Below are positions 5,295 through 14,988 of a stretch of DNA of 64,000 nucleotides, one piece after another. The stretch covers positions 1-64,000 of IMG/VR virus record IMGVR_UViG_3300032322_002674. The stretch is one strand, 5' to 3'. Position 1 is the stretch's first letter; each line of letters begins with the position of its first letter. The notes under the pieces are model-generated. The model was not told the origin of the DNA. It saw nothing but the letters and a program-made list of their open reading frames with translations, and did not search any database. A program made the position numbers and the translations under genes. Origin of the DNA: a virus.

Positions 5295-6104
5295 TTAATA
5301 ATTTTTTATCAATAGTTCTATTGATTTTGTTTGTTTTAGATTTTGTCTTGCCATACTTGGTTTAACAAACTCTTTATTTAAATAAATCCATTTATCAGGG
5401 TTATATATATTGTTAATACCTTCAAAATCATAGTAAGATACAGAAACTTTATTATTTAATGAATCCAAAACCTTACCCAATCTTAGATGGTCATCATAAT
5501 TAAAAGATTGATTTGAATAATAATCTTCCAATTTAAAATATGGTGCATCTATATAAAAATATGATTCAGGATATTTTTTTATTACTTCTTCAAAATCTAA
5601 ACATTCAATATTTGTTATTTTATCAATTTTATTAACCCATTCAGGTTTTATTAGTCTTTCTTTAAAAGTTAAAAATTTTGATTTATATTTACCTTTTAAA
5701 TCAACAAATTTACTTGTTTCAGGTTTAGTACCAGAAAAAACTTGTGTAACAACATATATATAATTTAATCCAATTTCAAAATCAGGTTTTTCGGGATTAT
5801 ATTTAAAATCACTATTAAAACAATTTTTCTGATAAAAATCAAATCTTTCCTTTTCTTGTGCAGGAATGTCTTTAATATGATTATAAAATTCTTCGTGATG
5901 TTTTATACATAAAAACAAATTTGCATTTAATGGATTAATATCATTATAAACAACTTCATTTAAATTATTCAATTGTTCGGTAGTTAAATTAAAATATACC
6001 CAAAATGCACCACCAAAAGGTTCACAATAAGAATTAATATCGTTTGGTATATATTCTTTAATCCATTTACCTATTCTACTTTTACCTCCAATCCAAGAAA
6101 ACAT
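5295..6104 (-). CDS. Dam-like (D12 class) DNA adenine methyltransferase, variant DAPY motif
   Basis: 269 aa, normal length for the D12 class, which transfers a methyl group from S-adenosylmethionine to adenine N6. The AdoMet-binding motif appears as CEPFGGAF near residue 27-34. The catalytic motif IV reads D-A-P-Y near residue 172 instead of the usual DPPY. The N-terminal W-x-G-G-K-S-R segment is typical of the family. A second D12-type gene (36695-37351) has canonical DPPY. The DAPY change may alter activity or specificity, so treat it as a likely but unproven methylase. It could protect phage DNA against host restriction. Confidence 0.8.
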   Translation of the reverse strand: MFSWIGGKSRIGKWIKEYIPNDINSYCEPFGGAFWVYFNLTTEQLNNLNEVVYNDINPLNANLFLCIKHHEEFYNHIKDIPAQEKERFDFYQKNCFNSDFKYNPEKPDFEIGLNYIYVVTQVFSGTKPETSKFVDLKGKYKSKFLTFKERLIKPEWVNKIDKITNIECLDFEEVIKKYPESYFYIDAPYFKLEDYYSNQSFNYDDHLRLGKVLDSLNNKVSVSYYDFEGINNIYNPDKWIYLNKEFVKPSMARQNLKQTKSIELLIKNY

Positions 6105-6166
6105 ATTAAAATTTTCTTAGAAAGATAATGGATTTTATTTAAAAGTAAATTTAATCATAAATAATA

Positions 6167-6928
6167 TTACCAAATCGAATTATCTTCAAATAAAATTACA
6201 TGGTTTATTTGATTATTAAACGGTAATTCAACTGTACCATAAACTTCTACAAGAATATCAGAATAAATTCCAAAATTAGGGTCTATACCCAAATTTTCAA
6301 TCATTTCAACAGTATTTAAATTAACTATTCTGTCACCCTTCACAGAATAAAAAGTTCTTTCTTCATTGAAGTTTCTTACAGTTCCTATGTTTACTTGTTC
6401 ATGCAACATCCAAACAATAGATTTTTTAATCTTTGATTGAACTTCATTTTCATCATCCAACCTATTTAAGTTATCAATAAAGATATTTCTAAATTCAAAA
6501 CCTTCTTCAATACTTACAATATTATTAATTAAAATATTTTGATATTGATTTAAATCAATATTATCAATATTATAATCTTCAAGTATGTTTCTTCTTAAAC
6601 GTTCTGCAACCCCACCACCATACATTAAATTAACTGGTTGTTGTCTTTGAATTTCCTCAAAAATAATCATGTTATGTTCGTTCAAATGGGTTCTAATGGA
6701 TTTCAAAAGAAGTTTAACATTCTCTTCTGGAATATCCATTAATTTTATTGCCTTTTTGGAATTTTCATTTAATGTTATGGATAATTTATTTTCATTATTA
6801 ATTGTTGCATTAACAACAATATAATCATAATCATTAAACCCTAAATCCCCCAAATTGAATGTTTTAAATAAAACATCTTCATTATTTTCTCTTGGGAACG
6901 ATATATATCTTTTATCTTTAAAAATCAT
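6167..6928 (-). CDS. Hypothetical protein, 253 aa
   Basis: Not recognised. Acidic and Asn-rich, mixed alpha/beta by composition, with a Gly-rich turn (YGGGVAERLRR) near residue 105. No membrane segment or obvious catalytic motif. It precedes the methylase gene by 62 bases and follows the 108-aa gene by six, inside the minus-strand unit that includes clpP and clpC. Confidence 0.6.
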   Translation of the reverse strand: MIFKDKRYISFPRENNEDVLFKTFNLGDLGFNDYDYIVVNATINNENKLSITLNENSKKAIKLMDIPEENVKLLLKSIRTHLNEHNMIIFEEIQRQQPVNLMYGGGVAERLRRNILEDYNIDNIDLNQYQNILINNIVSIEEGFEFRNIFIDNLNRLDDENEVQSKIKKSIVWMLHEQVNIGTVRNFNEERTFYSVKGDRIVNLNTVEMIENLGIDPNFGIYSDILVEVYGTVELPFNNQINHVILFEDNSIW

Positions 6929-7271: not shown

Positions 7272-8252
7272 TTAATTAGTTAATAAAATTTTAGATTTTT
7301 TGTGTGCCACTTGATTAAATAAATCATCTCGATTAAAAGTGTCTAAATAAGGATATTTTATATTATTAAGGTTATTGATTGTTGTTTTTAATTTCAAATA
7401 TTCAACAATTCTTGTACCATTCCAATATCTGTTTATGTAATGAAGTTTTACAATAAAACCATTTAAAAAACCAATCAAATACATTAATTTTTCGATTTCC
7501 TCATTTAAATAATAACATCTATCCATAAAAATTTGACCGTTATCTAATCTCCAAAGTAATGCTCGACCTTTTAATTTACCATTTTCAGTTACAATTAACA
7601 TATTAACTTTTTCATGATTATGTTCATACAATTTTGGTGAATAACCTTGTTTTGAATTTCTCATGCAAGATTTACCTAAAACTGTTTTGGGACCATCATA
7701 GAAAAAATTGTCTTTATGATAATTTTTTTCTGAATACCAAAAGGTTATTTCTTCACCTGAAACAACCTTAATATCATAATTAATCTTAGATATATTTAAA
7801 AGGTTTTTGAAATTCGTAATAAAATTCTGTATTAAAACATCATCCTTAACAAAACTACATAATTTAGATATTTTTATTTTATTCCATTTTGATTTGTCAC
7901 TATGACTACCAAAGATTTCATTATCTTCAATTTTGATATATTTAAAAACACCTAAATTTAATTTATTTAAATAATAATCATTAACAATTTTTTTACTTAC
8001 TTGACAGTTATTTGTAACAGATAAAAATGTCAAATATTTAAGTGTTTTATCACACAATGAAGTTTTATTATTTAAACCCAATTCTATTTGAGAATCTTTA
8101 AAAACACCTTTGAAAGAAAAATTATTTAAAAGATTATATAAATCTAAATTTAAATTAATTTTTTCAAAGGTTTCTTTAACTTCTTTTTTAAAAGAAAGTT
8201 TTTTAAAAGAAAATGGGAAAATAAAATCAGTAAATTGTACAAATAATGACAT
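7272..8252 (-). CDS. SCM-family phage protein, copy A
   Basis: 326 aa, no known function. The C-terminal half holds a motif set shared with the genes at 44322-45164 and 9157-10062: a K-S-C-M block, then a short strand, K-G-R-A-L-L-W, a D-R-x-Y about 15 residues later, and a closing Y-P-Y-L-D-T-F. The N-terminal half is not conserved among the three. The invariant Cys, Arg and Asp suggest an enzyme or ligand-binding fold, but I cannot name one. It sits four bases after clpP. Confidence 0.7.
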   Translation of the reverse strand: MSLFVQFTDFIFPFSFKKLSFKKEVKETFEKINLNLDLYNLLNNFSFKGVFKDSQIELGLNNKTSLCDKTLKYLTFLSVTNNCQVSKKIVNDYYLNKLNLGVFKYIKIEDNEIFGSHSDKSKWNKIKISKLCSFVKDDVLIQNFITNFKNLLNISKINYDIKVVSGEEITFWYSEKNYHKDNFFYDGPKTVLGKSCMRNSKQGYSPKLYEHNHEKVNMLIVTENGKLKGRALLWRLDNGQIFMDRCYYLNEEIEKLMYLIGFLNGFIVKLHYINRYWNGTRIVEYLKLKTTINNLNNIKYPYLDTFNRDDLFNQVAHKKSKILLTN

Positions 8253-8256
8253 TAAC

Positions 8257-8916
8257 TTATTTTTTAAGGATTAATCCATCAACTAAACCGTATTCTACTG
8301 CCTCTTGACCTGTAAACCACTTATCACCGTTATTACAATCTTCTGCGATTTGTTCATAAGATTTACCTGTATTAATAGATAAAATATCATAAAGTTCTTT
8401 ACGTAACTTTTTCATTTCTTCCATTTGGATTTCCATATCAGTTGCCTTTCCCTGAGTTCCACCTAAAGGTTGGTGTATCATTGTTCTACTGTGTTTTAAA
8501 GAGAATCTTTTACCTTTTTGTCCTGATGATAATAAAACTGCACCCATTGATGCAGACATACCAACATTAATTGTTTGTACATCTGGTGAAATCCAATTCA
8601 TTGTATCATATATTGCCAATCCTGCTTGAACAGAACCACCAGGAGAATTAATATACATTATTATATCTTTTTTATGGTCTAAATTTTCAAGAAATAATAA
8701 TTGAGCAATTATTACATTTGCTGCTGTATCTGTTACAGGACCTCCAAAGAAAATTGTTCTATCCATCATTAATCTGTCAAAAACAGACATGATTGCAAAT
8801 CTTTTTTCTCTTTCTTCAACAATGTGTGGTGTCATCATTGAAATTTCTGAATTAATTTCTTTTTCATTCAATCCCAAGTCTTTTGAGAATTTTGTGAATT
8901 CATTTGTAAAGTTCAT
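8257..8916 (-). CDS. clpP: ATP-dependent Clp protease proteolytic subunit
   Basis: 219 aa, close to the length of bacterial ClpP. The serine-protease triad is visible: S123 in SASMGA, H148 in MIHQP and D193 in the AED segment, with the SPGGSV oxyanion loop at 91-96. The tetradecameric chamber degrades substrates unfolded by a Clp ATPase; the phage ClpC gene lies downstream in the same unit. The leader AAACAAACAAT before the ATG is identical to that of the 56-aa gene just upstream. It could process virion proteins or remodel host proteins; the window does not say which. Confidence 0.96.
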   Translation of the reverse strand: MNFTNEFTKFSKDLGLNEKEINSEISMMTPHIVEEREKRFAIMSVFDRLMMDRTIFFGGPVTDTAANVIIAQLLFLENLDHKKDIIMYINSPGGSVQAGLAIYDTMNWISPDVQTINVGMSASMGAVLLSSGQKGKRFSLKHSRTMIHQPLGGTQGKATDMEIQMEEMKKLRKELYDILSINTGKSYEQIAEDCNNGDKWFTGQEAVEYGLVDGLILKK

Positions 8917-12648: not shown

Positions 12649-13875
12649 TTAAAAACAAACATTAAAAAATTCTTCTAATTCTTGTTTTGTTTTTATATTA
12701 ATTATTTTACCCTTATTTTTATTAAAAAATTCCATCCATGTTGATACCACTTTATTTACTTTCCAAGAATCAAAATAACTGATTACTATATCTTTAAATT
12801 CTTTTAAATCTATTACTTCACCGTTTTCAGTAGAATTATTAAACCAATTAAATAATCTATTTTTAAAACGTTCACAACCCTTATAACCTGAATCCTGCCA
12901 TTTACCACCTTCAAAATAATGATTAATAAACATCAAATACATTCTAAGAAGTTGTGGTTCATATTTATTTAAATCTACAACATTATTAAGTCTTTTACTC
13001 ATTTTATTACCATCTTCACCAAGAATCATACCTTGATGTACTACCTTCTTAAAAGGTTCATCAAAGTCAATATAACCAATATCATATAAAAATTTAGTTA
13101 TAAATCTTGAGTAAATAAGATGAGCACAAGCATGTTCATTTCCACCTACATATATATCAACTGGTTTAGTTTTATCATACATTATTGTATAAAAAGAAGA
13201 ATCAACAAATGTATCTAAAGTATCACTTTCACCTTCCATTGGTATTGGGCAACCCCAACTTCTTTGCCTTGATACACACCAATCTCTAAAATTATCTTCT
13301 CTTAACCAATAAAGTTGTTGTTTTTTAGTCTTTTCAGGGTAGTCAACTTTTTCTAAATCTTTAATAAGTCTTTCTCTATAATCTGTAATTTTAAAATACC
13401 ATTGTTCCATTTCTTTTTGTTCTATTATTGCACCACTTCTTTCACCCCTTCCTTCTATAATTTGTTCATTTGCAAGAACTGTTTTATCAATTGGGTCCCA
13501 ATTAACTAAACCCATTTTTTTATAAGCAAGTCCATGTTTATAAAGTTCTTTAAATAACCATTGTGTTTTTTCAATATAATAAGATTCAGATGTAATTAAT
13601 TTCTCTTCAAAAGAAGTATTCATTCTAACCATTTCCTTGCGGAAATTTTCTATATTCTCATAAGTTACTTCTTTAGGATTTCTACCAATTTTTTTTGCAT
13701 AATTTTCTGCTGGAAGTCCAAAAGAATCAAATCCAAATGGTTGAAAAACATTATATCCTTTAAATCTTTGTATTTTACAATAAGAATCTACAATTGAGTA
13801 GTTATACCAATGTCCACAATGTAATCCACTACCTGATGGATAAGGGAACATAACTGTAATAAATAAATTTTTCAT
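12649..13875 (-). CDS. leuS: Minimal leucyl-tRNA synthetase-like protein without editing domain
   Basis: 408 aa against about 860 for bacterial LeuRS. The class I core is intact: PYPSGSGLHCGH at 11-22 (HIGH signature), DSFGLPAE at 50-57, VNWDPIDKTVLANEQ at 124-138, DWCVSRQR at 198-205, DTFVDSS near 221-227 and KMSKR at 291-295. The CP1 editing domain, normally inserted before the DWxVSRQR block, is absent: residues 188-198 run straight through. The zinc-binding cysteines of the first insertion are lost (GRGERSG), and only about 90 residues follow KMSKR. I chose ATG 13875 because upstream codons read through the promoter. It may charge tRNA-Leu without proofreading or act on another substrate. 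Confidence 0.88.
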   Translation of the reverse strand: MKNLFITVMFPYPSGSGLHCGHWYNYSIVDSYCKIQRFKGYNVFQPFGFDSFGLPAENYAKKIGRNPKEVTYENIENFRKEMVRMNTSFEEKLITSESYYIEKTQWLFKELYKHGLAYKKMGLVNWDPIDKTVLANEQIIEGRGERSGAIIEQKEMEQWYFKITDYRERLIKDLEKVDYPEKTKKQQLYWLREDNFRDWCVSRQRSWGCPIPMEGESDTLDTFVDSSFYTIMYDKTKPVDIYVGGNEHACAHLIYSRFITKFLYDIGYIDFDEPFKKVVHQGMILGEDGNKMSKRLNNVVDLNKYEPQLLRMYLMFINHYFEGGKWQDSGYKGCERFKNRLFNWFNNSTENGEVIDLKEFKDIVISYFDSWKVNKVVSTWMEFFNKNKGKIINIKTKQELEEFFNVCF

Positions 13876-13879
13876 AATA

Positions 13880-13910
13880 CAAATATAATAAAAAAACAAT
13901 AAAAAGTCAA
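13880..13910 (-). promoter_or_regulatory. Host-like promoter, TTG-N20-TATATTTG
   Basis: On the minus strand TTG, 20 bases, TATATTTG, ending five bases before the LeuRS ATG. It nearly abuts the divergent ATATTTAT of the plus-strand gene at 13929, so two promoter types lie back to back. Confidence 0.6.
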
Positions 13911-13928: not shown

Positions 13929-14132
13929 ATGGATATTTTATTAACAAATAAGGAATTGGTTGAAAAAATGGGTAAACTTTTTAAAGAACATGAGGATTTA
14001 AAAGTTAAAATTTATAATGATATGATTTTGTTGGAAGAAAAAGAAAAAGAATATATTGAATTATATGAAGAATTAAATAAAAGAACTGGTTTTAAATCAG
14101 AAACAAAGGTGGAGGAAAAAATAAATGAGTAA
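13929..14132 (+). CDS. Small coiled-coil protein upstream of gp5-like gene, 67 aa
   Basis: Lys/Glu-rich, one long amphipathic helix over residues 10-55, likely a coiled coil. First gene of a two-gene late operon; it overlaps the gp5-like gene by eight bases. A GGAGG run near its end acts as a Shine-Dalgarno for the next gene, unusual in this window. Probably a small baseplate or assembly factor; function unproven. Confidence 0.65.
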   Translation: MDILLTNKELVEKMGKLFKEHEDLKVKIYNDMILLEEKEKEYIELYEELNKRTGFKSETKVEEKINE

Positions 14133-14988
14133 TTTTTCTTTTAATAATATTAATTCAAAAATAAAAGAAAATAAAACTTTTATTTATTATGCAGAAGTGG
14201 TTGATAATAATGACCCTACTGAATCTTTTAGAATAAAGTGTAGAATACCTGATATAGATAAAATTACAACACCTTTATCAGAATTACCATTTGCAACACC
14301 ACTACTACCAAGACATCTCAATATTTTACCTAAAGTTGGGGAAACTGTAAAAGTTTTCTTAAATAGTGAAGATACAAGAAATAGGGAATGGATAGGACCA
14401 GTTATAACACAATTACAAAATGTAGATTATCAAAGTTATTTTGTAAATGCATTTAATGGTAAAACTTTTGAAAATGTATCATCAAATACGCCAATTTCAC
14501 AAATACCTGAAATGAATGATGTTTATCCAAATAAAAATACAATTGCATTAATTGGTAGGGGTTCAACAGATATACAATTACAAAATGACGCGATTTTAAT
14601 AAGAGCAGGGAAATATGATAATAATATTATTATTGATGAATTTGATAAATTAATCGCATTAAATAGAAAAAATCCTGCTCAAATTGAGTTAAAGTGGGAT
14701 GGTGAAACTTCTAATACAAATATTATTTCTGATACAATAAATTTAATATCCCACGAAGGAAACCCAAAAGTTAGTTTTAATGGGGTAGATTTGGATATTA
14801 ATAAACTTCACCCACTTCCTTATGGTGATGTTTTATTGGAATTTTTGGAATTAATTAAACAATTTGCACTTACACACATTCATTCAGGTTCCAGATTGGA
14901 GTCAAATATAGGTTCAGGTCAACTAGAAAAAATTAAAAATTTTGATTTAAGTAGGATTTTAGGTAATCAAAAAATTAGAATAAATTAA
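14125..14988 (+). CDS. Baseplate spike protein with gp5-like OB-fold
   Basis: 287 aa. The N-terminal half has the layout of the OB domain of T4 gp5 and related spikes: a D-P-T-E-S-F-R-I-K-C-R-I strand, then F-A-T-P-L-L-P near residue 52-58, P-K-V-G-E-T-V-K-V-F near 70-80 and R-E-W-I-G-P near 92-97. No lysozyme insert is present; cell-wall cutting is probably done by the amidase at 60686-61660 or the fusion at 62103. Expected at the tip of the tail, bound to the gp27-like hub. It overlaps the converging 103-aa gene by 14 bases. Confidence 0.75.
   Translation: MSNFSFNNINSKIKENKTFIYYAEVVDNNDPTESFRIKCRIPDIDKITTPLSELPFATPLLPRHLNILPKVGETVKVFLNSEDTRNREWIGPVITQLQNVDYQSYFVNAFNGKTFENVSSNTPISQIPEMNDVYPNKNTIALIGRGSTDIQLQNDAILIRAGKYDNNIIIDEFDKLIALNRKNPAQIELKWDGETSNTNIISDTINLISHEGNPKVSFNGVDLDINKLHPLPYGDVLLEFLELIKQFALTHIHSGSRLESNIGSGQLEKIKNFDLSRILGNQKIRIN

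Follow-up and report, generated by a model that had tools for sequence, protein, structure and literature searches.

Editing by leucyl-tRNA synthetase (LeuRS) is treated as near-essential, and the C-terminal domain of the enzyme is regarded as important for binding tRNA-Leu. The LeuRS of Mycoplasma mobile lacks the CP1 editing domain (PMC3834818); a short linker, reported to be a nonapeptide, stands in its place and the leucine-specific domain is missing as well (PMC5059758). Huge phages carry up to 67 tRNAs and 15 synthetases (Al-Shayeb et al. 2020, PMC7162821). The window analyzed here is a stretch of 64,000 nucleotides of viral DNA, taken from an IMG/VR record of 173,457 bp that is itself a fragment. 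From its letters alone, a half-size LeuRS without an editing domain had been proposed at positions 12649–13875, and reading frame, strand, coordinates and family were all confirmed. The gene lies on the minus strand, with its ATG at 13875 and its stop codon at 12649–12651, and encodes 408 amino acids (P0001); the assignment draws on a family match, a PDB search and a structural model. It stands alone among structural-type genes, with a baseplate-hub match at 14125–14988.

The NCBIfam model leuS_bact (TIGR00396) matches the protein with E = 1e-103, covering three pieces and skipping the CP1 stretch. The score of 347.9 bits is below the curated cut-off of 548.4 bits because half of the model is missing from the protein; a 508-residue relative that also lacks CP1 scores 557.9 bits, above this NCBI equivalog cut-off. 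LeuRS enzymes were the best matches in a sequence search of the PDB. The core is that of a class I LeuRS, not of a class II enzyme such as SerRS, AlaRS or GlyRS, and a weak similarity to MshC was seen in the profile search. The AlphaFold2 model (pLDDT 92.8, pTM 0.90) has as its top Foldseek match 3ziu, the M. mobile LeuRS that lacks CP1, together with Leu-AMS (TM 0.91 over the query), and follows chain B of that structure up to its residue 544. VIA-align superimposes 407 of the 408 residues on 5ah5 (Z 35.8, rmsd 2.1).

The Rossmann catalytic core is present with its HIGH and KMSKS motifs. Residues were checked in an alignment of 42 minimal LeuRS sequences with full-length LeuRS. In the HIGH motif (HCGH, residues 19–22; 13810–13821, minus strand), H19, G21 and H22 are invariant in 42/42 minimal enzymes, as are K291 and K294 of the KMSKS motif (KMSKR, residues 291–295; 12991–13005, minus strand). 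The leucine- and ATP-site residues M9, Y12, D50, F223, S226, E247, H248 and H252 are likewise the same in all 42, and F10 and Y242 are nearly invariant. The active-site blocks are thus kept, as the sequence-only reading had it.

The losses can be read from the same alignment. Only 6 residues separate L191 from D198 at the point where full-length LeuRS carries the 191–202 residues of CP1 (join at residues 191–198; 13282–13305, minus strand). A second join, after RQRxWG.PIP (residues 212–216; 13228–13242, minus strand), leaves 3 residues in place of the zinc insert of 54–57. The tail past N385 comprises 23 residues, compared with 118–130 in full-length LeuRS, and the C-terminal tRNA-binding domain is absent. 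The claim that nearly all of the C-terminal tRNA-binding part is missing needs qualification: the domain proper is gone, but the helical bundle is trimmed rather than absent. Model and alignment place four helices in residues 328–408 (12652–12894, minus strand), with no C-terminal domain after them, and the model aligns over its full length up to residue 765 of the E. coli and 783 of the T. thermophilus LeuRS. This bundle has 13 K/R and 12 D/E residues and hence no net positive charge.

The zinc cysteines had also been reported missing. They are indeed absent from the window copy, but this is not unusual by itself, as Acinetobacter LeuRS has D/D/G/S at these positions; the CxxC...CxxC pair is present in 36–37 of the 42 minimal relatives. 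The cysteine-less ZN1 module (residues 121–156; 13408–13515, minus strand) was compared with other LeuRS sequences segment by segment. It is 28% identical to that of the closest relative, L004, and 58–67% identical to the Acinetobacter/W02 type, whereas its flanks are 68–74% identical to L004 and 40–45% to the Acinetobacter/W02 type. By these identities, ZN1 looks like a module swap that makes the window enzyme a mosaic.

No second reading frame supplies the missing domains: the whole 173,457-bp record holds neither an editing domain (PF13603) nor a second piece of LeuRS, and in other records the editing-domain search gave weak matches only, in IleRS-sized reading frames. A split enzyme of the Aquifex alpha-beta type, or editing in trans, was rejected on the strength of this result for the 173-kb fragment.

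A host-type promoter, and early expression with it, had been proposed as well. A promoter-like site (TTGACT-17-TATATT, 10/12 matches) does lie just upstream of the ATG, at 13882–13910 on the minus strand, but sites of this kind are no more frequent than expected by chance (9 in the region, fewer than the 12.9 in shuffles). Similarly, TAnnTTTG precedes 5 of 63 genes and is no commoner there than in random 60-mers (6.2%). If the site at 13882–13910 were real, transcription would, judged by spacing, begin on the LeuRS ATG or directly beside it (13876–13882) and give a leaderless mRNA.

More than 40 relatives were found on phage contigs of up to 735 kb. Scans of IMG/VR gave 46 loci, the longest contig measuring 607,744 bp, and almost every locus is a complete minimal gene of roughly 400–430 codons. 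Two huge-phage records carry relatives, LR745206 (634,780 bp, 59% identical) and LR756501 (735,411 bp, 39% identical). Three copies lie in bacterial genome bins (L271–L273), which may be phage contigs. The dN/dS of the minimal enzymes is 0.05–0.24, indicative of purifying selection and not of a decaying gene. The 735-kb phage and two further contigs (L237 and L238) encode a version of 504–508 residues, in which the zinc insert is retained but CP1 and the C-terminal domain are gone. In a tree of the quick kind, with a pattern-selected sample of full-length LeuRS, this longer version groups with Acinetobacter LeuRS (99%), apart from the window family (100%). The AU test rejected a single clade of minimal enzymes (p = 3.9e-5). 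Given this rejection and the separate grouping, reduction of LeuRS in phages probably happened twice. The few Bacteroidota sequences included in the tree do not support an origin of the window family in that phylum.

The 634-kb phage has synthetases for Leu, Val, Met, Ile and Gln, of which only LeuRS has a homologue in the 173-kb record. Among the proteins that the two have in common, LeuRS is the most alike (59%; the others are 22–54% identical), which fits horizontal spread. A remnant of the gene was seen in L269 and L270 at 6001–6308, where residues 1–80 are followed by residues 360–404 in another frame, with intact tRNA-Leu genes on either side. The remnant reads as gene loss in progress, and its decay beside intact tRNA-Leu genes means that minimal LeuRS is dispensable in some phages. 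L258 has a second, partial C-terminal copy (residues 312–402, 49% identical) at 8189–8461, about 1 kb past the complete gene. L016 encodes, on the same contig as its minimal LeuRS, a 284-residue protein (1839–2693) with weak AsnRS/AspRS similarity that is under full synthetase length.

The relatives are strongly associated with tRNA genes. In an ARAGORN count that reached 6 kb from each of 46 non-duplicate minimal-LeuRS loci, 75 of the 194 tRNAs (39%) were tRNA-Leu; leaving out W02-type loci gave 57 of 156. Genome-wide, tRNA-Leu accounts for 10 of the 118 tRNAs (8.5%) in the two huge phages. An array of five tRNA-Leu genes ends 11 nt ahead of LeuRS in L237, one of seven ends 22 nt ahead of it in L238, and five tRNA-Leu genes lie just upstream of the enzyme in the 735-kb phage. 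The discriminator is A73 in 73 of the 76 distinct tRNA-Leu near minimal LeuRS genes. A73 is the chief identity element for leucine in E. coli, whose enzyme needs A73 and contacts in the D and T loops, and does not need the variable arm (PMC9976931). Arrays of tRNA-Leu with A73 beside the gene are as expected if the enzyme charges tRNA-Leu. A GlnRS-like gene in the 634-kb phage comes after three tRNA-Gln genes, and such pairing of a synthetase with the genes of its cognate tRNA may recur across these phages.

The window's own phage departs from this pattern. The 173-kb record, a fragment, was searched for tRNA-Leu and yielded none; ARAGORN gave only tRNA-Lys, and there was one weak Rfam match. 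No tRNA-Leu was found in the 180-kb relative G001, also a fragment. For the window's phage, the substrate would then be host tRNA-Leu or the product of a gene on the missing sequence. Outside the window, at 161274–161330 (plus strand) of the same record (G000:C1), a 57-nt tRNA-like match to RF00005 scores 35.2 bits, above the gathering score, and is not called by ARAGORN. Several relatives have a tRNA-like element of 65–66 nt, 630–870 nt downstream of LeuRS (L006, 7833–7898; L007, 7839–7903; L008, 7840–7905; L009, 7832–7897; L015, 8071–8136; L016, 8072–8137). It has no clear D-arm, TCT or CTA in the anticodon region, and a strong T-arm. We rejected it as a partner of LeuRS: a decayed tRNA-Arg is its likeliest identity, since an intact tRNA-Arg(UCU) occupies this position in L004. 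In the 735-kb phage, two tandem tRNAs with a CTA anticodon (LR756501, 690585–690738, plus strand; tRNA-Pyl according to ARAGORN) are possible amber suppressors.

We consider it likely that the window gene encodes a functional, minimal and editing-free LeuRS that charges tRNA-Leu. This was one of the options in the sequence-only reading, and it is supported by the tRNA-Leu arrays of the relatives, by the conserved active site and by the CP1-less 3ziu as best structural match. Such an enzyme would activate leucine with ATP and move it to the 3' end (A76) of a tRNA-Leu bearing A73, with recognition of the tRNA probably mainly through the acceptor end and the shortened helical bundle. Because CP1 is gone, post-transfer proofreading would be impossible, and errors with norvaline or isoleucine would be controlled at the synthetic site only, as for the M. 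mobile enzyme. During infection the enzyme could keep phage translation supplied with Leu-tRNA. In the huge relatives the predicted substrate is tRNA-Leu encoded by the phage itself; in the window's phage it would be host tRNA-Leu, or else tRNAs from the unsequenced parts. Four points weigh against charging of tRNA-Leu: neither the 173-kb record nor the 180-kb one, both fragments, has a tRNA-Leu; the C-terminal domain, which in known bacterial LeuRS touches the elbow and the variable arm of the tRNA, is absent; the bundle has no net positive charge; and the L269/L270 copy has decayed.

A wider proposal, which we put forward only tentatively, is that huge phages have evolved, at least twice, a self-contained leucine-charging module, consisting of a tRNA-Leu array and a LeuRS without proofreading and without the domain for the tRNA elbow and variable arm. 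The module would charge any tRNA-Leu with A73 and bypass host LeuRS, with mistranslation (norvaline for leucine) being tolerated or useful. A ValRS-like protein of 442–443 residues, also without the CP1 editing domain, is encoded in the 634-kb phage (W01, LR745206; 34378–35709, minus strand) and in L245 (578–1906, plus strand), in the latter some 4 kb away from the gene for minimal LeuRS; NCBIfam ValRS models match it with E values of 1e-98 to 1e-103. That these phages also have this 443-residue protein suggests that doing without editing is a strategy general among phages.

Among the alternatives to charging of tRNA-Leu, the one that survives best, while still unlikely, is a synthetase-like enzyme that passes activated leucine to another target, such as a carrier protein, a small molecule, a peptide or a modified base. 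MshC, GluQ-RS and the aa:CP ligases are synthetase-like proteins that serve other targets after losing tRNA-binding parts. The loss of the C-terminal domain, the trimmed bundle and the weak MshC similarity would all fit such a role, as would the lack of tRNA-Leu on the 173- and 180-kb records that carry the window copy and the L015 group. There is also a precedent for activation that stops short of the tRNA, in that LeuRS-I of the Sulfolobaceae yields Leu-AMP and does not charge tRNA (PMC9437257). Against this stand the strong link of the relatives to tRNA-Leu genes and the unchanged KMSKS motif and leucine pocket. Activation of leucine for another carrier, as had been suggested from the letters, is further disfavoured by the lack of a PP-binding domain (PF00550) in the phage's own record and in 11 of the 13 records searched, and no shared biosynthetic neighbour or tRNA-independent partner was seen.

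We judged it still less probable that the enzyme is specialized for a phage tRNA-Leu of class I shape, having shed the domain that reads a long variable arm. Cellular tRNA-Leu is a class II tRNA, and a special tRNA as substrate had been raised as a possibility. Short arms do occur in 28 of the 76 distinct tRNA-Leu near minimal LeuRS genes, and two to four short-arm tRNA-Leu lie directly ahead of the W02-type gene. However, although they adjoin the gene in several phages, the ratio of short to long tRNA-Leu(UAA) near the enzyme (3:7, 30%) is that of the IMG/VR background (20:56, 26%; p = 1.0). The enzyme is absent from 48 of 49 contigs with a short-arm tRNA-Leu and present on one, long arms prevail among the tRNA-Leu in its neighbourhood, and no short-arm tRNA-Leu was seen in the 173-kb record of the window's phage. 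Persuasive as the pairing had seemed in both huge phages, the short-arm tRNA-Leu was dropped as a dedicated partner, being widespread in IMG/VR (79 of the 80 pattern matches listed) and not enriched near the enzyme. As an observation in its own right, short, class-I-like tRNA-Leu(UAA) of 73–79 nt make up about a quarter of the phage tRNA-Leu(UAA) pattern matches (20 of 76; L116–L195 and L351–L410).

A non-catalytic decoy or regulator, binding host tRNA-Leu or LeuRS, for example, and so altering host translation or countering defence, would suit a half-size protein whose gene lies outside a tRNA context in the window clade, but is highly improbable with catalytic residues constrained across 42 sequences and the low dN/dS (0.05–0.24). 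Splitting of the Aquifex type, carrier ligation and a non-catalytic role all fare worse than charging of tRNA-Leu.

A conserved phage family that has shed both the editing domain and the C-terminal domain, apparently on two occasions, yet remains linked to its cognate tRNA genes would set the lower size limit for a natural LeuRS and show what suffices for leucylation; we know of no natural LeuRS smaller than this one. It would also make testable whether phages give up fidelity to gain a smaller enzyme or to evade the host's control of LeuRS. Compact or orthogonal LeuRS/tRNA pairs could naturally be developed from it.

A LeuRS without CP1 (M. mobile) and synthetases in huge phages (PMC7162821) were already known. 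We found no paper in the open-licence literature on a phage LeuRS without an editing domain, nor on one that is linked to tRNA-Leu arrays, has arisen twice and lacks the C-terminal domain along with CP1 (as well as the zinc insert in the case of the window family). The main text on the huge-phage synthetases mentions neither LeuRS nor missing editing domains (PMC7162821). Like the M. mobile enzyme (3ziu), the phage protein has no CP1 in cis, has a short join instead and keeps the active site. Unlike that enzyme, which is the cell's own and has 637 residues, with a chain that runs well past the stretch matched by the phage model, it comprises 408 residues and lacks the zinc insert and the C-terminal domain. 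With full-length bacterial LeuRS (E. coli, T. thermophilus and Agrobacterium AgnB2) it shares the catalytic fold, HIGH, KMSKS, the leucine pocket and ZN1, and VIA-align gives Z scores of 32–36 over about 404–407 residues; in contrast to these enzymes, the window copy has no CP1 (about 190–200 residues), no zinc insert and a tail of 23 residues. It resembles MshC, GluQ-RS and the aa:CP ligases in consisting of a catalytic core whose tRNA-binding parts are incomplete. To our knowledge, none of these lies beside arrays of cognate tRNA genes, as the relatives of the phage LeuRS do.
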